Source: Streptococcus rubneri (lineage in GTDB: Bacteria; Bacillota; Bacilli; Lactobacillales; Streptococcaceae). Taken from it: a stretch of 64,000 nt of DNA. The stretch is taken from the NCBI RefSeq assembly GCF_004785935.1, contig NZ_SRRP01000001.1, positions 868,001-932,000 on the forward strand, written 5' to 3'. The translations under genes and the position numbers were made by a program. Within the stretch, counting starts at the first letter, position 1, and the number at the start of each line of letters is the position of its first letter. Shown here in pieces: positions 2,285 through 14,100 of the stretch. The notes below the pieces were generated by a model. That model saw only the letters and a list, made by a program, of their open reading frames with translations, made no database searches and was not told the origin of the DNA.

Positions 2285-3367
2285 TTAAACAAAGTAATAG
2301 TTCACCTTCAACTCTCTGAACTGCTCATATCCAAGATACTGATCCTTCTGCAAGCGACCTAAAACAATACTAGGATGGATATCGATTTCCTCAGCAAAGC
2401 GTTGAATATCCGACTTATCAAAATTTCCTTTTTCAACAAAAGCCTGATAGTCTTCTGGGCTAATCAAGAGATCTTTTGCAAACTGGTCTGCCCGTTCCTC
2501 AGAACGACGGTAGGATTCACTATTTCCATCATCTGATGAAAAATCGTTTTCTAGAATATGCCCTATCTCATGGAAAAGTGAGAACCAGAAAATATCGGAC
2601 GCTTTATTTCGATCTGTGAGTAAAAGCATGGCACTACCATTTCCAAATTTTCTCGTAGCACCATTTAGATTGGCATTTGGCAAAGCAGGTAGACCGACTA
2701 GGACAACACCACAATCTAGCAAGATATCATATAAGCGTTGAGGAAAGACTTCAGGATTTTGTCTGGTCAACTTTCTCAAAGCAGGCAAGCTTCTCTCAAG
2801 CTTTCTGCGATTGAGCTTAGTAGTCGTTATATCACGTGCTTTTTTAGATGCCAACTCCAGCATGATATTGGAGTTGACTATACTTTTAGTCGTGAACTCA
2901 CGCGTATTCCGATAGCTGACTAGATGGTTAAAAGATGTAAGGTTTACTAAACTTGCAACACCTAGAATCTTGCGAAGCTCGATAATCTTTTCCTTCAAGC
3001 TATAGCGTTTGTCTGGCACGTAGCCTTCTTCCTTAAAATACTTGAAATCAATCACCTCACTGATTTCTTTCTCGCTACCTTCTTCTAGCTCTTTTTGTTC
3101 TACAATCTCTGCAACTTTTACATCATAAGCATTTTGAAGATTGAGCCAAGTTTGCATGGCAACTCCGCTTAGCTTGGCTAATTTATGCGCCGTTTCCTTA
3201 CTGATCGACTCCTCAGCATTGACGAGCTTGCTGACAGTCTTTGCCGAAACTCCTAAGCGCTCCGCAAATTCCTTCTGCGTCACATTGTAATCTTCGATTA
3301 ACTCACTAACATACTGACCTGGATGAAAAGCAATCAGGTCTTTGTATTCAACAATTTTTTTACTCAT
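2285..3367 (-). CDS. higA: HigA-type antitoxin with ImmA/IrrE metalloprotease domain
   Basis: The 360-residue protein starts with an XRE helix-turn-helix (about residues 28-60, QKEFAERLGVSAKTVSKLV) and ends with an ImmA/IrrE domain carrying the zinc motif HEIGH at 266-270 and a downstream EERADQFAKDLL helix that supplies another ligand. Most HigA antitoxins have about 100 residues, so this is the long fused form. By family knowledge it neutralises the HigB toxin and represses its own operon. Whether the HEXXH centre cleaves a protein (itself, a repressor or a phage factor) cannot be told. Its start overlaps the toxin gene by 8 bp, so the two are translationally coupled. Confidence 0.85.
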   Translation of the reverse strand: MSKKIVEYKDLIAFHPGQYVSELIEDYNVTQKEFAERLGVSAKTVSKLVNAEESISKETAHKLAKLSGVAMQTWLNLQNAYDVKVAEIVEQKELEEGSEKEISEVIDFKYFKEEGYVPDKRYSLKEKIIELRKILGVASLVNLTSFNHLVSYRNTREFTTKSIVNSNIMLELASKKARDITTTKLNRRKLERSLPALRKLTRQNPEVFPQRLYDILLDCGVVLVGLPALPNANLNGATRKFGNGSAMLLLTDRNKASDIFWFSLFHEIGHILENDFSSDDGNSESYRRSEERADQFAKDLLISPEDYQAFVEKGNFDKSDIQRFAEEIDIHPSIVLGRLQKDQYLGYEQFRELKVNYYFV

Positions 3368-3698
3368 AATGATTGCTGACCTCCTCTATTTTTAGGATTT
3401 CAATTTCAACAGGACTAGGAAATACCTTTTCTAGATCCTCCTCACGAAATTCTACAATCAACCGATAGGAACTTTTCCGACCATCTATATCCAAAGCAAA
3501 TTGTCCCTGTCTCTTCCCCTTGAGTTGGTGAAAGTGATATTTAGGAAAAGCTATCACACTGGCCAAAGAATCTGCTGCTTCCAAAAAGGTAATCAACTGA
3601 TGCAACTTTACAGCAATCTTATCCGAAAAATCCTTTTTCGCTCGCCTCAGCTCTGTGCACTGCTTTTCAACAGTTTTATTTGTATAGATAAGCTTCAT
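3360..3698 (-). CDS. higB: HigB-like RelE/ParE-superfamily toxin
   Basis: The protein has 112 residues with the core YHFHQLKGKRQGQFALDI and SYRLIVEFRE, typical of HigB/killer-protein mRNA interferases of the RelE fold, which cut mRNA at the ribosome. Lys, Arg and Tyr residues in these two segments are the expected catalytic or RNA-contacting set. It is the first gene of the operon, the toxin-first order characteristic of HigBA. A perfect palindrome at its promoter is the likely autoregulatory site. The pair sits directly downstream of the type I restriction locus but behind that locus's own terminator. Confidence 0.85.
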   Translation of the reverse strand: MKLIYTNKTVEKQCTELRRAKKDFSDKIAVKLHQLITFLEAADSLASVIAFPKYHFHQLKGKRQGQFALDIDGRKSSYRLIVEFREEDLEKVFPSPVEIEILKIEEVSNHYE

Positions 3699-3759: not shown

Positions 3760-3791
3760 AAAAAGACCAGTTAAAACTTTCATTAACTGGT
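3760..3791 (-). terminator. Terminator of the restriction locus
   Basis: ACCAGTTAA (3766-3774) pairs with TTAACTGGT (3783-3791) and is followed on the minus strand by CTTTTTG. It separates hsdM transcription from the toxin-antitoxin promoter. Confidence 0.75.
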
Positions 3792-3816: not shown

Positions 3817-5424
3817 TTACCCCTTAAACTCCTCGACAAATTTCTTGAGTTCGGCATCGGCTTCAGGTGTCGTCCCATGAAGCTGGCTGAGCATGTCTAG
3901 GAGGGAGGCTGTCTGGACCTCAATAGTGGCGTTGGTTTGGTTGATCTTAGCCACGATATCTGTCAGTGGCTCTACTTCTTCTTCCACAAAGGTATCTACA
4001 TAGCGTGGGATATTGAGGTTATAGTCATTCTCGACGATCTCCTCAAAGCTAGCCAGATGGGCGAACTTATCCATGTCTTCTCTACTCTTATAGGCCTGGA
4101 GGATCTTCTCGATATGGGCATCCGTCATGATGTTCTGGTTCTTGCCCTTGTCAAATTCCTTAGAAGCATCAATTAAGTATACGTCCCGATTGGTCCGGTT
4201 CTTTTTGAGAATGATGACCGTCGTTGGGATGCTAGTATTGAAGAAGATATTGGCAGGTAGTCCGATTACGGTATCAATGGCTCCTTCTTCCAGCAAGGCC
4301 TTGCGAATGGTTCCTTCCGCATTGCCACGGAAAAGAACCCCGTGAGGAAGGACGATGGCCATCACACCATTGTCTTGTTTCAAGTGATAGTAACCGTGCA
4401 AGAGAAAGGCGAAGTCAGCCTTAGATTGAGGCGCCAGCTTGCCAAATGGGGAGAAGCGAGGATCTTGGAGGAAACCAGAGCTTGCAGACCACTTAGCTGA
4501 GTAGGGTGGGTTCATAAGGACCCCATCAAAGTTGGTCGGCTCTTGGGTCGGCCAGTCTTCGTCCAAGGTATCGGCATTATGCAAGAACTGGTTTTCCACT
4601 GGAACCCCGTGTAGAATCATGTTCATCCGAGCCAGGTTGTAGGTAGAGGTATTGAGCTCCTGACCAAAGTACTGGACCGTTTGAGGCTGGTGAGAAAATT
4701 TCTTGGCATTAAGCAAGAGGGATCCTGATCCCATGGTGGCATCGTAGATGGTAAAGCCCCGCTCGTCTTCACGCCCTAAAAAGGCAATCTGGGTCATGAG
4801 CTTGGCTACAGGCTGAGGTGTATAGAACTCACCTGCTTTCTTACCCGAGTCGGTCGCAAACTGACCAATCAGATACTCATAGGCATCCCCCAGCATATCG
4901 CCTGCATGACCAGCCACATCTAGCACAGCCAATTCTTTCATGACTGCTGCTACCGTTTGATTTTGCTTTTGCGGAGTTGCCCCTAGCTTTTTAGAGTAGA
5001 GGTCGATATCTTCAAAGAGATTTTCATAGAGATCATCACTCTGCTCGATATCACGAAAACCTTGAGCCAAGTCTTCCAGCTGGAAAGTCCCCTCATTGAC
5101 ACGTGCTACCAGAGCCGTAAAGGTCAAGTCTGGCTTGATAATATAGTTGAGCTCATCCTTCATGACTGCAAGAAGATCCTCGTGAGTATCCGCATCCTCA
5201 TAGTAGTTGCGATAGACCTCAAGGGCATCCTCAAGACTATCTGTCCCTTCTTCCATGGTCTCCGCCACGAAAAAGAGCATCTTGTCTGACAGATACTTAT
5301 AAAAGACCATGCCCAAGAGATAAGACTTGTAGTCATTAGCATCCATCTTAGAGCGGAGAACATCCGCTGAGTTCCACAGGGCTTGGTAGAGCGACTGGGA
5401 CGTTTGTGTTGTTTCTTTAATCAT
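3817..5424 (-). CDS. hsdM: Type I restriction-modification methyltransferase subunit HsdM
   Basis: The 535-residue protein has an N-terminal helical HsdM region (to about residue 150) and an N6-adenine methylase domain. GEFYTPQPVAKLM precedes the SAM-binding motif DATMGSGS (228-235), and the catalytic motif NPPY is at 305-308. With HsdS it methylates adenines in a bipartite site; with HsdR it forms the restriction complex. It is the last gene of the locus. Base composition is clearly more GC-rich than in the gene just upstream, so the locus looks like a mosaic. The ribosome binding site is weak and A-rich. Confidence 0.95.
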   Translation of the reverse strand: MIKETTQTSQSLYQALWNSADVLRSKMDANDYKSYLLGMVFYKYLSDKMLFFVAETMEEGTDSLEDALEVYRNYYEDADTHEDLLAVMKDELNYIIKPDLTFTALVARVNEGTFQLEDLAQGFRDIEQSDDLYENLFEDIDLYSKKLGATPQKQNQTVAAVMKELAVLDVAGHAGDMLGDAYEYLIGQFATDSGKKAGEFYTPQPVAKLMTQIAFLGREDERGFTIYDATMGSGSLLLNAKKFSHQPQTVQYFGQELNTSTYNLARMNMILHGVPVENQFLHNADTLDEDWPTQEPTNFDGVLMNPPYSAKWSASSGFLQDPRFSPFGKLAPQSKADFAFLLHGYYHLKQDNGVMAIVLPHGVLFRGNAEGTIRKALLEEGAIDTVIGLPANIFFNTSIPTTVIILKKNRTNRDVYLIDASKEFDKGKNQNIMTDAHIEKILQAYKSREDMDKFAHLASFEEIVENDYNLNIPRYVDTFVEEEVEPLTDIVAKINQTNATIEVQTASLLDMLSQLHGTTPEADAELKKFVEEFKG

Positions 5425-5447
5425 AGATCTAATTTTTTTCTTTCTTT

Positions 5448-7040
5448 TTAAACTACTGGAATTTTTAAAATTGAATATTTAAATCCCATGCTTTTTAATT
5501 GTTGAATCGCATTGAATAAATTAACCATTGAAAAGAATGGTAATATATCAGAATTTCTTACTCCTCCTTTTACTCGTTTATCTAAAATTGCAAATACAAT
5601 TTCCAACTCATTATTTGTCTCTGATAGATTCAGTATTTTACAACCGCATTTTTTATTAATGAATTTTTTCATTTTAATATCCTGAGCTAATATAGTGGCA
5701 GACACAACACCCTGAGAAAATAAATGACTTAATTTTGACGAAGAACCTCCTTTTTTTACATGAATTAACTTTTTGTCTTTGGTCACAATATCTGCCACTT
5801 CAACACTACTTCTTCCATAGCTATCCCCATGATACATTTCTTTATCCAATATATAGTAATCTGGATGACTTGCAGAAAATGCTTTATTAAAATCTCCTTC
5901 ACTCTGTCCATTAGAAGCTAGGAGAACAATTGGAAGCATAGTATCCACAATATTATCAATTTCAGTTTTTATAGTATTAAAAAATTTTTTATTAATTTTA
6001 TACCAAGAACCATAACATAAAATATATTTTTCTTTGTTATAATCTATTTCGAAAATTAATGATGAATATAAGCTTCCAACTATTCTTTCCTCATCTGTGT
6101 CTTTATATTTGGTAACTAATTTATTCCGTTTTAAAGACGATATAAAAGAGCTATTTGATTTATTTTTTCCTATTGTTGAGAAATATGCATTCGAATCAAT
6201 TTCAATTGAAAACTCTTTTTCTCTTTTTCCAGTTCCAGTAAGAAAAAAGCCTTCTATATTCTCCCAATCAAGTAAAGTATTAGGAGCAATGGTTGGATAG
6301 TTCCCCGTTGTTATCTCTAGGTATAATTGATTATCTAAATCGGATTTTAAATTTTTTTCTCTCACTTCCAAAATATTATCAAGCCATGAAAAACCATTGT
6401 TTTTATAATCATCTTTTTTATAGCTACTAAAATAATAATCAATACTTTCTTTAATGTTAGTTATACTCATTTTTCGACTAGCTACTAAACTATCTGTTCC
6501 TACCAGAAATGTTGCCACACTTTCCTGACTAGGTGCTCCAGAAACGGATTGTAGTAAATTTTTTCGAGTATCTAAATCAAATATATCTTGAGAAGCGTAA
6601 ATTGAACTTTGTCTTTGGGATGAGACTATGACATCTTCAATACTGGTTATATTCATACTTCTTATTTTATCTTTATCAATTAGATTTGCCGCTACTTTCA
6701 AACCAAAATTTCTAACTATTTTTAAATCATTTAGCATTGATCTGCCATACCCATAAGTTATACTAAAAAATCTATTTCTTAGCTTCACTACAACCACGGC
6801 TTTATTGGGAACATTTTCAGAAAACTTTATTTTTAGGGCAGATAGTTGATTTAACTCATCCTGCCAAGAAGGCAATTTAGGATCTGATTTCTGAACAAAT
6901 ATTTTCCCATTTAGTCCAATTTTACTATTTAATGGGTATTCATCATACTTAATCTTATCTTTTAGACAGTCTTCAAATTTTTTAACTGATTTGCTATTAA
7001 GAAACAAAGAAATTTGAGTAGTTTTTAATCTTTCAGTCAT
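5448..7040 (-). CDS. DUF6119 / TIGR04141-type protein inside the restriction locus
   Basis: The start at 7040 is chosen because GGAGAG lies just before it; an in-frame ATG at 7061 overlaps hsdS. The 530 residues resemble the sporadically distributed TIGR04141 family, with the typical segment HVKKGGSSSKLSHLFSQG from about residue 427. An Asp/Glu-rich run (SVEVADIV) precedes the HVKK strand, loosely like a PD-(D/E)XK nuclease core; that reading is inference. Such proteins are known in and near phage-defence loci, but no mechanism is established to my knowledge. The gene is very AT-rich compared with hsdM and hsdR. It lies between hsdS and hsdM with short gaps, so it is co-transcribed with the methylase genes. 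Confidence 0.7.
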   Translation of the reverse strand: MTERLKTTQISLFLNSKSVKKFEDCLKDKIKYDEYPLNSKIGLNGKIFVQKSDPKLPSWQDELNQLSALKIKFSENVPNKAVVVVKLRNRFFSITYGYGRSMLNDLKIVRNFGLKVAANLIDKDKIRSMNITSIEDVIVSSQRQSSIYASQDIFDLDTRKNLLQSVSGAPSQESVATFLVGTDSLVASRKMSITNIKESIDYYFSSYKKDDYKNNGFSWLDNILEVREKNLKSDLDNQLYLEITTGNYPTIAPNTLLDWENIEGFFLTGTGKREKEFSIEIDSNAYFSTIGKNKSNSSFISSLKRNKLVTKYKDTDEERIVGSLYSSLIFEIDYNKEKYILCYGSWYKINKKFFNTIKTEIDNIVDTMLPIVLLASNGQSEGDFNKAFSASHPDYYILDKEMYHGDSYGRSSVEVADIVTKDKKLIHVKKGGSSSKLSHLFSQGVVSATILAQDIKMKKFINKKCGCKILNLSETNNELEIVFAILDKRVKGGVRNSDILPFFSMVNLFNAIQQLKSMGFKYSILKIPVV

Positions 7041-7053
7041 AGTCTCTCCAATC

Positions 7054-8271
7054 TTAAACAAACATATCTTTCAAAAGTTTCTTTTTCAGTGTTTCTAACT
7101 GAGAAATTTTTTCTTGGTGAGAATTGATGAGGTTATCTAGGTTTGAGAAATAGGCACCGATGGCTTGTTGCTCAGCTACATTCGGAGGTAAAAAGATATT
7201 CGTTTCTAATATATTCTTATTGTATAGTCGTTTTATTGTTGTTCCCTCAATTCCAGACCATTTTATTATTCCATAATATTGTTTCAAATATGAATTATCT
7301 AATTGCTGATCATGCTTTAACCATACTATATTTGAATCTTGATAATAGGCAGCTTCACCGTTGTATACAACAGTTCTACCAATACTGCCAGATGCAGATA
7401 TAAGGATATCGCCTATTTCAGGATAAGGATATTTTTCTTTATACTCTTTGAATTTTTCTTTAGATATAAAAGCATCAGCAGTTCCTCCAAATGTTCCAAT
7501 TTTATAGAAAGGAATATCACCATTTACACTAGTTTCATTTTTAAAAATACGTTTATTCATAGCAACAGAACCCAAACTGCCTAATGTCCTTTCTTTCCAC
7601 TCACCTTCAAATCCATCTAAACGAATTTCGGGAACAGTCTGTCCAGCTTTGGGAAACATTTTGGCAAGCATGGTCTCCTTGAGTGATTGGTAGTTAGTGA
7701 GATTATCCTTGTATCTCGCCAGAAGGTCATCGAAAGTGCTGAAGAGGGAGCCAATGGCAGATTGTTCAGAGAAAGATGGAACGCTCATTTTCATACTTTT
7801 CAATATTACACTAGATAAGTTTCCAATCGCACCATTTCCCCCTTGTACAAATTGTAACACTCGTTTATACTCATTTGAACTCATCCAAGCATTTACGAAG
7901 TAATTCTGCTCAGTTTTAAACAATAACATAAAACCACCATGGACAACTATCTCATCATCTGGTAAATTTTTTATAATTGCATGTTTTCCGACTAGCTTAG
8001 TGGATCCATTAGCTGCAGTTACTAAAATATCTCCATTGCTTACTCGGGGAATATTTATCACGTCTTTACTTACAAACACATCATCATCTGATATCACGAA
8101 GGAATCATCTACTATGTTCGAGCTTCTTAAAACCCGTGCTCCCTTACTTCTTACATCGTTTGGGTTATAGGTCAGACCTCTTCTTACTTCTACTTGAGAT
8201 AATAACGAAGACGTCCGCCAATAATCGTTAAAATTATCAAATCTTAAAATAGGTAAGATTTTCTCTTCCAT
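7054..8271 (-). CDS. hsdS: Type I restriction specificity subunit HsdS
   Basis: The 405-residue protein shows two target-recognition domains, about residues 10-160 and 220-365, each followed by a conserved helical spacer: QSAIGSLFSTFDDLLARYK and QQAIGAYFSNLDNLINSHQ, both leading into a LETLKKKLL/YQSLKETML coiled segment. This is the complete HsdS architecture that reads two half-sites. Only one full hsdS is present, with no truncated silent copies or recombinase, so there is no sign of the inverting specificity systems seen in some streptococci. The GGAGAG ribosome binding site overlaps the end of the AbiH-like gene's intergenic gap. Confidence 0.92.
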   Translation of the reverse strand: MEEKILPILRFDNFNDYWRTSSLLSQVEVRRGLTYNPNDVRSKGARVLRSSNIVDDSFVISDDDVFVSKDVINIPRVSNGDILVTAANGSTKLVGKHAIIKNLPDDEIVVHGGFMLLFKTEQNYFVNAWMSSNEYKRVLQFVQGGNGAIGNLSSVILKSMKMSVPSFSEQSAIGSLFSTFDDLLARYKDNLTNYQSLKETMLAKMFPKAGQTVPEIRLDGFEGEWKERTLGSLGSVAMNKRIFKNETSVNGDIPFYKIGTFGGTADAFISKEKFKEYKEKYPYPEIGDILISASGSIGRTVVYNGEAAYYQDSNIVWLKHDQQLDNSYLKQYYGIIKWSGIEGTTIKRLYNKNILETNIFLPPNVAEQQAIGAYFSNLDNLINSHQEKISQLETLKKKLLKDMFV

Positions 8272-8287
8272 TTATTTTTCTCTCCAT

Positions 8288-10867
8288 TCACAAACTATAT
8301 TTTTTATGTAGAGTAGTCGCAAATTTCCTTATTGCAGTATTAAGTTCTTGTTTATAGATCAATTTAATTTTGTTATTCTTGAGAGGATACTCTTCATAAT
8401 TTGCTGTGTCTTTTAGAGCCGTTTCTCCAAATTGTTTTTCATTTTTATTTTCAACATCAAAATTTAGTACATAAAAAGTCAACGCTTGGCTATCAACTGC
8501 CCATGTTTTAGCAAATTCATTGATTTCTTTTTCAATGTTTTTTGCCTCAACATAATTTGCTTCATCTACATTTTCGGAGTGTTTTAATTTATTTTCAGAA
8601 ATATACTTTAAAATTGCATCAAAGACATCATCTTTTGTTTCAAAAGACATTTTTTTAATATTAGTATTTTCTCGATTATCTTCAATACTTTCTTCTCCCC
8701 TACTTATCTTATGATTATTTATATAAGTAAATCCTAAAGTATCTGTCGAGTCTTTGTCTTTCTTATTTTCTATATTTCTAATCTCCTCACGCTTTTTATC
8801 ATTTGCTTCTTGTTGTATATTTTGTGCTTCAACCCACATATTTAACAGTGACATCTCTTCGCCATTATATGTAATATATCTAAGATTAGGAACAACATCA
8901 AATATTAATTTTTGACTACCATCAAAAACTGATATTTCTATTTCAGTCAGATTGGACAAATATTGGGTTTTATCTGTTTGATTATTATCATCAAACTTAA
9001 ATAACGAAGAAAATCTATAAGTATCTGTCTCTCCTTTTATTTCATTTGTTTTCTCTGACAAAGATACACCAAGCAATTTTAAACTTCTAATTTTTGGAGA
9101 CAGAATAATTCCAGTGATAATTGGATCCACATCTACTTCCTGAGCATCAAGAATGAATGTTGACACATTGGGAAAGTAAATATCGTAACCAAACTCACTA
9201 TTTTCTGGATAATCCAATTCAATATAGCGACTATTACTAACAAAATTTAGCAAAGAATAATCTATCTTAATATTTTCATTTTCACGAATTATTATTTTTT
9301 TCAAAGTGTTACTAATTATATTTTTAGAAGCAATGATATTTACTATATGTTCCTCACTGATATTGTTTTTACACATTTCAAAATATTCAATATTCTGAAG
9401 CTGACTGATATCAATCTCAACGTTTTCAACACCTTCACAATAAATTGCACAATTACTAATTTTTATTTTTCTACATTTTTCAGTACTTGAAATTAAATTT
9501 TTTAGTTTCTCAATACTTAACGATGAGTTTGTAATTTCAATAGATTCACTATTTTTTATACATTCAATAAACTCTTTCATATCAAACAACTCATCCAAAA
9601 GCAACCTATCATCAGATTTTGCTCCGACTCCATCAATTATTACATGAAGTTTTTCATTGTATGTTTCTTTTATATCTAAAAAACTTAAAATCTTTTTTAA
9701 AGATTCGCACTCTATAATACTCGATATTTTTAAATATTGAAACTGATTGAATATAAAAAGTTTATTAGTCAGTATGAATTTGTCAAAAGGATATATTATC
9801 GGCAAAGATACATTGAACATTCTTTTCAATAATTCAATATCATTATTGTCCAGCTGAATTGAAGTAGTATTATTGCCTCCAAATTCTAAATTTTTCTTAC
9901 TGTCTTTGACCAAAATATCATAGAATGGTACTAAAACTATTTTTTCTAAGATATCGTTATTCAAAATTTTATTAATCTTCTGTAATTTGATTAGATAATC
10001 ATTACCAAAATAAAACAAATAAATTCTATTTGATTTTTCAAATATTTTTGACAAGAATGGTAAATCACTTCCATAAATAGAGTGACCTATAATATAGGTA
10101 TCAACTGAATTTCTCTTATATTTCTTTATTTTCTCTATCAATTGGGTGCGTTTTTCAAATAAATAAGTATCTTTTTTTATTCGAATCAGTTTGTCATTGT
10201 CCATAGAACCCGGAACATTAAACCCACTGTACTCTTCATTCCCAGTGAATCCACCTCCAAAAATAATATTCTTCTCAATTAAAGATCCGTGTACTTGAAA
10301 GTATTTTTGATTACTAACACTCCCAGTTTGAACTAGGTTTAAATCATATAAAGTACTTGTATAATTAAAGTTAATTACATCAGCATCTTTAAATATATTT
10401 TTATAAACCTCATTAACTACCAAACTGCTTTTATTATTTCTTTGAACTCTGTATGAATTATGCCATTTCTCGTAAAATTCAGACAAATAGGACGAAAATA
10501 AATCTTCTAACTCTTTAAGATACGCATTTATTTCAGTAACACTATATATACTCCTGATTTCATCGTCACTATTGTAAGTTATCTCATTAATCTCTTTAAT
10601 ATGATTTTCAAAAATTGACTCTAAATCGTTCCAATTTAATGATTTCCCATCAAATTTTTGTAAAAATAATTTATTAAAATTATAAATATCTTCATTTGTT
10701 TCAAGTTTCTCTTCAACCCTCAAGTGGTCTACAAAATTATTATACGAACTTTTTATCCCTACACTGATATCAAATCCGTTTCCTACTATAATCATTTTAG
10801 GATTGCTTGAATTAGCATTGATTACATCAGAGTGTACTAATTTATTTTCAATAATATCCTCAGACAT
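8288..10867 (-). CDS. AbiH-like abortive-infection protein with LRR-like middle and HsdR-like C-terminus
   Basis: The N-terminal ~340 residues of this 859-residue protein carry the AbiH signatures: IIVGNGFDISVG (26-37), FNYTSTL (167-173), VHGS (192-195), IIGHSIYGSD (259-268) and YLFYFGN (283-289). Residues about 370-690 are a series of irregular leucine/isoleucine-asparagine repeats resembling leucine-rich repeats. A charged coil follows (about 700-760). The last 75 residues (FAKTW at 785, GETAL at 814, NYEEY at 823) line up with the last 77 residues of the HsdR encoded next door (FAKRW, GESQL, RYKDY) with a two-residue gap. AbiH proteins are phage-abortive-infection factors of ill-defined mechanism. 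The position between hsdR and hsdS, and the shared tail, suggest that it associates with the methylase complex. The gene is strongly AT-rich. Confidence 0.75.
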   Translation of the reverse strand: MSEDIIENKLVHSDVINANSSNPKMIIVGNGFDISVGIKSSYNNFVDHLRVEEKLETNEDIYNFNKLFLQKFDGKSLNWNDLESIFENHIKEINEITYNSDDEIRSIYSVTEINAYLKELEDLFSSYLSEFYEKWHNSYRVQRNNKSSLVVNEVYKNIFKDADVINFNYTSTLYDLNLVQTGSVSNQKYFQVHGSLIEKNIIFGGGFTGNEEYSGFNVPGSMDNDKLIRIKKDTYLFEKRTQLIEKIKKYKRNSVDTYIIGHSIYGSDLPFLSKIFEKSNRIYLFYFGNDYLIKLQKINKILNNDILEKIVLVPFYDILVKDSKKNLEFGGNNTTSIQLDNNDIELLKRMFNVSLPIIYPFDKFILTNKLFIFNQFQYLKISSIIECESLKKILSFLDIKETYNEKLHVIIDGVGAKSDDRLLLDELFDMKEFIECIKNSESIEITNSSLSIEKLKNLISSTEKCRKIKISNCAIYCEGVENVEIDISQLQNIEYFEMCKNNISEEHIVNIIASKNIISNTLKKIIIRENENIKIDYSLLNFVSNSRYIELDYPENSEFGYDIYFPNVSTFILDAQEVDVDPIITGIILSPKIRSLKLLGVSLSEKTNEIKGETDTYRFSSLFKFDDNNQTDKTQYLSNLTEIEISVFDGSQKLIFDVVPNLRYITYNGEEMSLLNMWVEAQNIQQEANDKKREEIRNIENKKDKDSTDTLGFTYINNHKISRGEESIEDNRENTNIKKMSFETKDDVFDAILKYISENKLKHSENVDEANYVEAKNIEKEINEFAKTWAVDSQALTFYVLNFDVENKNEKQFGETALKDTANYEEYPLKNNKIKLIYKQELNTAIRKFATTLHKKYSL

Positions 10868-11005
10868 TTATATGAATACCTCTCTATTTAGTTCTTAATT
10901 ACACTAATAAATAAATTTGTCTAAATTATGATATTTATTTAAGTTCAGATTATTATTATTTTAAATGAAAAATCTAAACAATTATCTAACTACAGTTTTA
11001 AAACT
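10868..11005 (-). promoter_or_regulatory. AT-rich gap before the AbiH-like gene, possible promoter
   Basis: The 138-bp gap between hsdR and the AbiH-like gene is very AT-rich. On the minus strand TTAGAC and TAATTA are 17 bp apart near 10897-10925 and could be a weak promoter. GAGAGG lies 11 bp before the ATG. No hairpin with a T-run was seen, so read-through from hsdR is also possible. Confidence 0.35.
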
Positions 11006-13999
11006 CTACCTCCCCACTCTCAGTGGTTCAATCACCTCTTCGATCAGTTGGGTATAGGCTTCTTTGATTTGTTTTTTGTAGCTGAGTGGGTTGAGGGCGT
11101 CTGCTACTTCTGCCTTGTAGTCTTTGTAGCGTTGGCTCTTGGTCAGTTGGCTTTCGCCAGCTTGTTTTTTGGCGCCTTTGCGGTAGTGTTGGATATAGTA
11201 GCGCAGCTCGTCAGCTCCGATATACCAGCGTTTGGCAAAGCTTACGATATGGCTATCGATGATGGATTCGATCATCTGGTCCAAGACTCCGGTGATGGAT
11301 TGTCCTCGGTAGCGTTCGGGCTCTTCTTGGACTTGGGTCCAGAGATTTTGGATGATCTCTGCTAGGCTTGGATTGGTCCGATTCAGTCTCTCGATATAGC
11401 TATCCACAGTTGCGATATCCTTGTCACTCAGGCTTTGCTCGTCATTTTCCTCCTGCTGGATCATACTCTGGATCAGCATCAGGATATAGGCATAGTTGAT
11501 CTCATCGACTTGGACAGACTCCAGCTCATAGTGGATATCCAGCTCATCTTGGCTGTCCACTTCTGGATCCCTGCTCTTGATCTCCGCCAGGATATTTTGA
11601 TAGAAGCCTAGATAGGCTTCAAGCTGTCTGTCGCTAAGACCTGTTTCCCGATAGATCTCTTCCTTATCGTACTCTGAGTAGACGCGGATAGAAGCTTGGT
11701 ACTTGTCAAAGACCTGATAGGCTTTAGCAACCTTGCGGAGCTGCGCTGTTGGGACCTGCTCGAGGGCGACTCCTTCTTCTTCCAAGTCTGTGACTTGGCC
11801 TTTAAACTCTGCCCAGGCTTTTAAGAAGTTGCGCTTCTCTTCTTCCCAGCTTGGTGCTAGGACCTCATTTTCTCCTCCATTGGAGTAGAGCTTGAGGGCA
11901 TTGTCGACAGCTTCCTTAAAGGCTTGAGGGCGCTGGAAGGTGATGATATGACCAAAGTGCTTCTTGTCATCAAAGATCCGATTGGTCCGGCTGAAGGCCT
12001 GGATCAAGTCCTGTGGGCGCATAGGCTTGCGATCGATAAAAAGCGTAGAAAGACAAGGTGCATCAAAGCCTGTCAAGAGACGGTCGACCACGATGACCAG
12101 GTCCAACTGCTCATTGCGGTAGAGGTACTTGTCCTGCTTTCTGGCCAGGCGATTGTTGATATCGCTATTAAAGCCCCGCAGATCCGCTATGCTAAAATGC
12201 GTACCAAACTCTTGGTTGTAGTCCTCCATGACCTGCTTCATGTGGTCTTGGTAGCCGATAGATTCTTCCTCATTTTCAGATACTGAGTAGGTGATGGTAA
12301 ACTTTGGAAAATCTGGCAAATAACGTTTGACCCGCTCAGAGACCTTGACCCGCTCCTTGCCAGCGAGAATGCTCTTGAGCAGATTATAGTAAGCCTGTGC
12401 TCGTGGGATAGACTTGACCGTCAAGATACCCTCATTGCTCTTTCCGACCCCTTTAGGGATATTGAGCTGTTGCTGGCTCTTATTGAGGATGGCATCTAGG
12501 ACTTCTAGCATGTGCTCCTTTTCCTCATAGGCCTGGTCTGGGATTTCTTCTTCTAGGAGATCTGAGATGATGGTATTGCGGTAGTCGACCTTAAAGCCTA
12601 GAACCGCTCCATCATGGATGGCTTCCTTGACAGTGTATTCATGTAGGCGATCGCCATACTGTTGGTGGGTGGTCTGAGCCAGGTCTCCCACTTGTTTGCG
12701 TTTGTTTTCCTTGAAGATCGGAGTCCCTGTAAAGCCGTACCAGAGAGAGTTCTTGAAGTAGGCCTTGATCTCCTTTTGTGTCTGTGGCGTAACCGCCCGA
12801 TGGCACTCATCCACGACAAAGGCCACGCGCAAATCCTTGATCTTCCCAGCATCCCGCTGGTACTTCCCTTCTTCGAACTTGCGCATCATGGTTGTGATTT
12901 TCTGGATGGTCGTGACCACCACGCGCTTGTCATTGCCCCCTAGGCGCTTGACCAGCTCATGGGTATTGTCCGTCTCGTCGATGTCGATGACATCATTGGC
13001 CGCATAAGAGAGGAAGGACGAGGTCGTCTGCTGGTCCAGGTCTCTGCGGTCGACGACAAAGATGGTCTTTTGGATGGCTGGAATCTGCAAGAGATTGCGT
13101 GCTACCTTGTAAGAGGTCAGGGTCTTACCTGAACCGGTCGTATGCCAGATATAGCCTGACTCTTGACGGCGGGAGGCTTCCTGCACGGCCTCGATGGCAT
13201 GGATCTGGTAGGGACGCAGGAGGATGAGGGCTTTCTTGCTATCGTCGATGACCGAGTACTGCATGACCATCTGGTGGGCCCGGGGGATGGAGAGGACCTC
13301 ATGAGCAAAGCTATTGAGATCGATCATGGGCTGGTTGCCCTTGTCCACCCACTTGGTCAGAAATTGCTTATTTAGCTTGCTTTCACGGGCCGCAGCGATA
13401 TAGCGTGTGTCAACCTTATTGGTCACGACAAACATCTGCAAACTGGAGTAAATGCCCCGGAACTTGCCTTCACGGTCGTACTTTTTTATCTGGTGAAAGG
13501 CATCTAGAAAGGCCACTCGTGGACTCTTGAGTTCGATATGGATGAGGGGCAGGCCATTGATCATAAGGGTCGTATCGAGCCTTCGATCCTGGTCTAGCGG
13601 ATAGGCCTTGTCGCGTTCGACTTGGTTGACCACTTCATAGCTCGACTTACCAGCTGCGATATTGTCCCGCCAGATGACCGCCAGACGGATGGTCCCTAGA
13701 CTGGCATCCTCACGTTGGACTTCAACCTTGGCGATACCATTTTCACCCGCAAGCCACTTGGCTGCTTCATAATAGCTGACAAAGTTGAGCTGGTTCTTGA
13801 TTTGGCGCTTTTCCTGGTCGGTCAAGGGGTGGTCTGCCAGCAAGGCGACATTGTTTTGCGCGAGCTTGTCAAAAAAATTATCCCATAACTGGTCTTCGTT
13901 CTTGAGATCCTCACGATAGGTCCACTGACTCTCCCCTGATGTCAACTGCTGGATCAACTGTCTTTCAATCTCAAGTTCTGGAGTTGCTACTGCCTTCAT
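11006..13999 (-). CDS. hsdR: Type I restriction endonuclease subunit HsdR
   Basis: The start at 13999 (997 residues) follows AGGA at a 7-bp distance; an upstream in-frame ATG at 14095 lies in a terminator-proximal repeat and is unlikely. The N-terminal nuclease domain has the PD-(D/E)XK core with IELK (155-158). The translocase has Walker A TTGSGKT (287-293), DECH (397-400), GFTGTPIF and QAFSRTNRI. The C-terminal helical region (FAKRW at about 921 to the end) is the part thought to dock on HsdM/HsdS in this family. It pumps DNA and cleaves unmethylated invaders. It is the first gene of the locus. Confidence 0.95.
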
Positions 14000-14033
14000 C
14001 CGTCTATCCTTTTCCTCTACATAATCTCCTATT

Positions 14034-14042
14034 ATTATAGCA
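14034..14042 (-). promoter_or_regulatory. Extended -10 promoter of hsdR
   Basis: On the minus strand the sequence reads TGCTATAAT, an extended -10 box, about 35 bp before the hsdR start. No good -35 is seen at the right spacing. Confidence 0.65.
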
Positions 14043-14072
14043 TGTTTGGGAAAGAAATTAACGCTTTCAAAG

Positions 14073-14100
14073 CATTTTGTTGGTTTTTCGCGCAAAAAAA
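14073..14100. repeat. 28-bp direct repeat, left copy
   Basis: These 28 bp are identical to 16041-16068 and in the same orientation. They contain TTTTTCGCGC and end in seven A residues. The left copy lies between the hsdR promoter and the terminator of the small-gene cluster. Confidence 0.85.

Follow-up and report, generated by a model that had tools for sequence, protein, structure and literature searches.

Why should a phage abortive-infection protein end in the same way as the restriction subunit encoded beside it? The question is raised by a type I restriction locus of Streptococcus rubneri, situated in a stretch of 64,000 nucleotides (the window) that forms part of contig 1 in the 2.16 Mb genome. 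There, a gene for an AbiH-like protein of 859 amino acids (aa), below called the effector, adjoins hsdR. An earlier note on this DNA had observed that the C-terminus of the effector resembles that of HsdR. The latter is believed to contact the complex of HsdS and HsdM via its C-terminal domain (PMC2878639, PMC5248579). The resemblance was confirmed, as effector residues ~746-849 are homologous to the HsdR C-terminus. The most likely explanation is a SIR2-like abortive-infection effector, which would be docked on the core of two HsdM and one HsdS subunits (M2S) via a borrowed HsdR tail and would fire when restriction is blocked or evaded.

The homology was established by several comparisons. 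Profiles constructed from HsdR sequences only score the effector at 37.7-45.3 bits, against a maximum of 10.4 bits in 2000 shuffles and 7.9 bits in reversed open reading frames (ORFs); the value of 45.3 bits comes from a profile of HsdR tails only, for which 10.4 was the best shuffled domain score. The shuffles and the reversed ORFs exclude a chance match of low-complexity AT-rich sequence. When a second HsdR-only profile was compared with 767 ORFs of 19 loci, 19 HsdRs and four other proteins were found at E <0.01, and all four were AbiH effectors. Direct BLASTP alignment of the effector and the neighbouring HsdR has E 2e-4 and is in register at both C-termini. The effector-only and HsdR-only profiles align by hhalign with probability 99.6 and E 1.9e-23 over 156 columns. 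The related effector of Niallia shares 40.3% identity with an Enterococcus HsdR over 182 residues (E 7e-26). The model of the tail (predicted local distance difference test, pLDDT, 71-93 in blocks, residues 770-859) has the EcoR124I HsdR C-terminal domain as its best match among solved structures. The nuclease and superfamily 2 (SF2) motor domains of HsdR were not found in the effector by a Pfam scan, and thus it is not a restriction subunit.

The remainder of the protein is consistent with its assignment to AbiH in the earlier note. The AbiH family PF14253 scores 81.5 bits, with a gathering cut-off of 30.9 (three relatives have 80.9-102.8), and the residues invariant in an alignment of nine proteins are retained: GNGFD (29-33), W79, F167-N168-T170, H193-G194, G261-H262-S263, and D268. 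The predicted fold of this part is SIR2-like; no SIR2 family was found in Pfam at E up to 1, and PADLOC gave no match of any kind for the effector at E ≤0.1. The proposed leucine-rich-repeat (LRR) nature of the middle part is plausible: its predicted fold is likened to leucine-rich repeats, but there is no Pfam LRR match, and the LRR pattern is not above that in shuffles.

Five proteins consisting of AbiH, the LRR-like middle and the HsdR tail were found, including that of the window (see the table below). All five reside in type I loci, with complete hsdR, hsdS and hsdM genes on the same strand beside the effector, which bears out the restriction context noted earlier and reveals no tailed homologue outside such loci. 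The effector gene lies directly 3' of hsdR in four of the five; in G1269, from the genus of the window, a gene encoding 269 aa lies between them. The HsdS proteins of the window and G1269 are 85% identical, those of Niallia and the IMG/VR contig just 44%. The searches covered 395 genomes of the order (92 with a match) and 398 of the phylum (12 with a match) with the tail profile, and 398 genomes of the class, 39 + 27 further genomes and 197 genomes of the genus with whole-protein profiles; these samples overlap. If a matching ORF was ~850-1125 aa long, it was in most cases classed as HsdR by its length, and the gene context was read for 13 short or odd matches (8 + 2 + 3), but not for others such as G373, G049 and the longer stretches L086 and L087. 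A tailed protein was recognised in 2 of the 395 order genomes and in 2 of the 197 genus genomes, the window's own genome being counted in both, and the window's own protein was the only one recognised in the class and phylum samples. The family looks rare. The possibility that the tail is a general trait of type I passengers was rejected, as no carriers other than HsdR, HsdR remnants and AbiH-LRR proteins were recognised in any genome sample searched.

Relics of HsdR tails were also observed. One, of 68 aa (L052 6515-6721, E 4e-6), lies ~2 kb downstream of an intact hsdR and is perhaps what remains of another tailed passenger. For two orphan C-terminal relics (L053 8471-8689, 72 aa; L054 7802-8062, 86 aa), inspection of the listed stretches by eye revealed no hsd gene. 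Upstream of the hsd genes of Marinilactibacillus piezotolerans (L015 3-4311) there are an ATPase-like gene (882 aa, with an N-terminus P-loop-like by eye) and two smaller genes.

The tail appears to follow the HsdR clade and not the effector lineage, although long branches advise care. In a tree of 20 rows, the AbiH domains of the five tailed proteins and of a protein from G1190 form one clade (support 100/99). In contrast, the Niallia and IMG/VR tails fall within a Bacillaceae-type HsdR clade, and the other three within the Lactobacillales HsdR clade. Forcing the effector tails into one clade costs 23.8 log-likelihood units with four effectors (p = 0.031 in the approximately unbiased, AU, test) and 32.0 units with five (p-AU 0.038), and none of 200 bootstrap trees contains such a clade. 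The ratio of nonsynonymous to synonymous substitution rates (dN/dS) between the window and G1269 is 0.10 in AbiH, 0.31 in the middle, 1.30 (interval 0.41-3.83) in the linker 701-745, which is 22% identical, and 0.42 (0.22-0.73) in the tail; between the Niallia and IMG/VR tails (residues 790-931) it is 0.35 (0.21-0.60). The tail thus evolves under purifying selection, and the linker in front of it is free to change. Such a layout, with a constrained domain attached by a free linker, is what might be expected of a docking module.

The following scheme may be suggested. The effector would combine a SIR2-like AbiH enzyme, the LRR-like middle and a copy of the HsdR C-terminal domain on a flexible linker. 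The tail would occupy the place of HsdR on the M2S core or bind the core beside HsdR, and the effector, if it is indeed an enzyme, would be silent while held there. The SIR2-like part would be released or switched on once the restriction complex is blocked, displaced or evaded by a phage, or once the LRR part encounters a product of the phage; it would then stop the cell, probably by consumption of nicotinamide adenine dinucleotide (NAD). The tail probably does dock the effector on M2S. Release or activation upon a phage block of restriction is suggested by analogy with PrrC only. A type I complex holds this toxin until infection by T4, the Stp peptide of which inactivates the restriction enzyme, brings about its release (PMC3874165, PMC12707154, PMC2610378). 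The scheme as a whole, in which the effector guards the restriction complex, is offered as tentative. A broader generalisation seems doubtful: the HsdR C-terminal domain would be a swappable M2S plug by which SIR2-like LRR proteins convert a type I complex to a suicide output, M2S would be a methylation-gated, sequence-specific sensor for an effector resembling nucleotide-binding LRR (NLR) proteins, and the LRR part would read phage anti-restriction proteins.

A number of observations weigh against the docked effector. The Foldseek E value of the tail against EcoR124I is just 6.6-7.5, and, of the eight rows on which the tail model is based, five are HsdRs, which makes the model lean toward HsdR. 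The Pfam family EcoR124_C (PF12008) was reached by none of the four effectors scanned with hmmscan, and profile A6 has no match to EcoR124I among the sequences of solved structures at E up to 1. The AU p values are modest, with long branches in play. Against its own HsdR the window tail has 24.3 bits, against another Lactobacillales HsdR 42.0 bits, the G1269 tail has 32.0 and 44.3 bits, respectively, and the Niallia and IMG/VR tails fit each other's HsdR equally well or slightly better (108.3 v. 101.3; 109.8 v. 109.1); the matching of tail to HsdR holds at the clade level only. The dN/dS of the tail (0.42) exceeds that of AbiH (0.10), and that of the Niallia and IMG/VR pair rises to 0.45 if residues 741-931 are used. 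Finally, AbiH genes without the tail also occur in type I loci. The genus search produced five more genomes with AbiH matches at E ≤1e-10. None of these AbiH genes has the tail, and each is located between the hsdR and hsdS genes of a type I locus whose HsdR is longer (1120-1122 aa). One of them, in G1190, encodes AbiH and a short LRR-like part (519 aa) and belongs to the same clade as the tailed proteins; the others (G1206, G1239, G1202, G1233) encode 351-358 aa. Hence the tail is neither required for, nor the cause of, the residence of AbiH in such loci. In ten other AbiH loci (L112-L116, L081-L085), neither hsd genes nor a tail were present in the stretches of 12-19 kb examined, which for L116 covered a single side. 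Overall, 5 of 5 tailed and 5 of 15 tail-less AbiH genes are in hsd loci, the counts being small and not independent. In four of the five tail-less type I loci (L129-L133), an opposite-strand gene of 412-413 aa lies between hsdR and AbiH.

The main rival explanation, which we consider unlikely, is that the effector is an alternative subunit replacing one or both HsdRs, so that M2S on an unmodified site would activate the SIR2-like enzyme in a methylation-gated, sequence-guided suicide. The tail is indeed the part thought to join HsdR to M2S (PMC5248579, PMC2878639), M2S has two places for HsdR, and R1M2S occurs as a genuine intermediate (PMC12707154). Besides, the highly similar HsdS proteins are those of the two effector-bearing genus loci, and in six other genus loci the DNA matches to the window hsdS extend for only ~120-730 bp. 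However, no tailed locus lacks a complete hsdR, the Niallia and IMG/VR effectors accompany strongly diverged HsdS proteins, and the LRR-like part suggests a protein trigger.

It is less probable still that the tail serves DNA binding or localisation, bringing the effector to DNA or phage replication sites, and is unrelated to M2S. The EcoR124I HsdR C-terminal domain is reportedly, according to the title of a paper, involved in 'complex assembly and DNA binding'. On the other hand, the five tailed forms found all lie in hsd loci, and the type of tail goes with the HsdR clade.

The effector could also be an ordinary AbiH passenger of a type I slot, the tail merely stabilising or co-localising it and the two systems working independently; this is improbable to a similar degree. 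The hsd locus of the genus (window 3817-14095 and L105-L111) is a passenger slot, with changing genes beside hsdS flanked by hsdR and, where the contig extends that far, by hsdM; the genus hsdR genes have 94% DNA identity to that of the window in five genomes and 76-77% in two. Ten scanned passengers include AAA + subtilase (IetS-like), SIR2 + HerA, NA37-like, SIR2 and KAP NTPase genes and others of no named type. In favour, unrelated passengers and tail-less AbiH also occupy this slot in the genus, and independent action is reported for tgvAB of Vibrio cholerae, which gives protection in the absence of HsdR activity, albeit to a smaller extent than the cluster as a whole (PMC11411939). However, no other passenger with an HsdR tail was found among all ORFs of at least 60 aa in the seven loci L105-L111, and thus the tail is a special trait of the AbiH-LRR effector.

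Very improbable is a by-product, in which a passenger inserted 3' of hsdR gained a duplicated hsdR 3' end without a role: hsdR relics do exist apart from intact hsdR (here, and beside rloC in PMC2610378), the effector adjoins or is near hsdR, and G1190 provides a tail-less relative, but in two independent pairs the tail is under purifying selection, with upper dN/dS bounds of 0.73 and 0.60, and the HsdR pattern is retained in it despite far divergence from HsdR, next to a linker that changes freely.

Table. Features of the hsd locus in the window and tailed effectors of other genomes
Feature	Position or locus	Strand	Remarks
hsdR, type I restriction subunit	11006..14095	-	1029 aa from TTG start; Pfam HSDR_N, SWI2_SNF2, T1R_D3-like, EcoR124_C; NCBIfam TIGR00348 327.5 bits
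HsdR C-terminal tail common to the effector	11018..11371	-	HsdR residues 909-1026; HsdR tail profile A2
AbiH/SIR2-like - LRR-like - HsdR-tail effector	8288..10867	-	859 aa
Effector AbiH domain	10028..10792	-	residues 26-280; SIR2-like predicted fold
Effector LRR-like middle	8798..9877	-	residues about 331-690
Effector fast-changing linker	8633..8767	-	residues 701-745; identity and dN/dS between the window and G1269; pLDDT <50
Effector HsdR-like tail	8291..8632	-	residues 746-859, strongest stretch 775-849; profiles, dN/dS, tail model
hsdS, specificity subunit	7054..8271	-	405 aa; Pfam Methylase_S
DUF6119/TIGR04141 protein, second passenger in the gene row, between hsdS and hsdM	5448..7061	-	PF19614 408 bits; TIGR04141 487.6 bits
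hsdM, methyltransferase subunit	3817..5424	-	535 aa; Pfam N6_Mtase, HsdM_N; TIGR00497 357.6 bits
Terminator-like hairpin 3' of hsdM	3766..3791	-	hairpin scan
Tailed effector, G1269 (genus of the window)	L128 8224-10803		
Tailed effector, Marinilactibacillus piezotolerans NZ_FOSJ01000016.1	L015/L060		798 aa
Tailed effector, Niallia taxi plasmid pMEGANia	L061		953 aa
Tailed effector, IMG/VR contig 2822917416_000004	L080		935 aa

The order of transcription on the minus strand is hsdR, the effector, hsdS, the DUF6119/TIGR04141 gene, hsdM, the terminator-like hairpin and a HigB-like/HigA-M78 pair. The terminator scan listed no same-strand hairpin between hsdR and the effector (11 hairpins on both strands of the region, 8.7 expected in shuffles). 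The G+C content is ~26-32% across the effector, hsdS and DUF6119 genes, compared to ~50% in hsdR and ~42-45% in hsdM. The DUF6119/TIGR04141 family is described as 'sporadically distributed'. The pair directly after hsdM (2285-3698) consists of a HigB-like toxin, under the Pfam cut-off, and a HigA antitoxin, which contains Peptidase_M78 and has a match to PADLOC PD-Lambda-2_B (E 3e-28); a similar gene is also found 3' of hsdM in G336 (L111 1991-3076).

Coupling of a toxin to type I restriction is already known as a kind. PrrC in the type IC locus EcoprrI is likewise a latent toxin within a type I operon, serving as a back-up upon restriction failure (PMC3874165, PMC12707154, PMC3506569). However, PrrC combines an ABC-NTPase with an anticodon nuclease, and neither Pfam domain was found in the effector at E up to 1; thus the effector, built of a SIR2-like AbiH, an LRR-like middle and an HsdR-derived tail, is not a PrrC. 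We know of no PrrC with such a tail. In 2012, a coupling of toxins with immunity systems was proposed, AbiH was described as a predicted Sir2-superfamily enzyme, and a link of Sir2 enzymes to type I restriction-modification (RM) systems was noted (PMC3506569); AbiH has an abortive phenotype, and its mechanism was listed as unknown in 2025 (PMC12322248). The effector shares the PF14253 domain and its invariant motifs with AbiH of Lactococcus and Streptococcus, whereas most AbiH genes found here without a tail encode ~290-430 aa and lack the LRR-like middle as well. It resembles the defence SIR2 proteins (SIR2-HerA/Nezha, DSR2) in the predicted fold of its AbiH part, but has no Pfam SIR2 sequence match and carries other accessory domains. 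Unrelated defence genes are inserted among hsd genes elsewhere, such as tgvAB in a V. cholerae type I cluster (PMC11411939; Payne et al. via citation there), and the accessible text of that paper mentions no docking tail common to HsdR. The C-terminal domain of HsdR (EcoR124_C) is homologous to the tail and matches its predicted fold, but HsdR also has the nuclease and motor domains.

As far as literature searches go, the novelty lies in the combination, above all in the HsdR-derived tail: an AbiH protein with such a tail was reported in no title or abstract beginning found, which is not proof of absence, as subscription papers and bioRxiv are mostly outside the search. Defence genes are common inside type I operons, and whether they interact with the restriction enzyme is usually unknown. 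The borrowed HsdR tail, selected and matched to the HsdR clade, is a concrete, testable physical link to that enzyme. If the link is real, the effector would be a second answer, architecturally distinct from PrrC, to the sensing of disabled restriction, and the tail would serve as a sequence tag for finding further RM-docked effectors.
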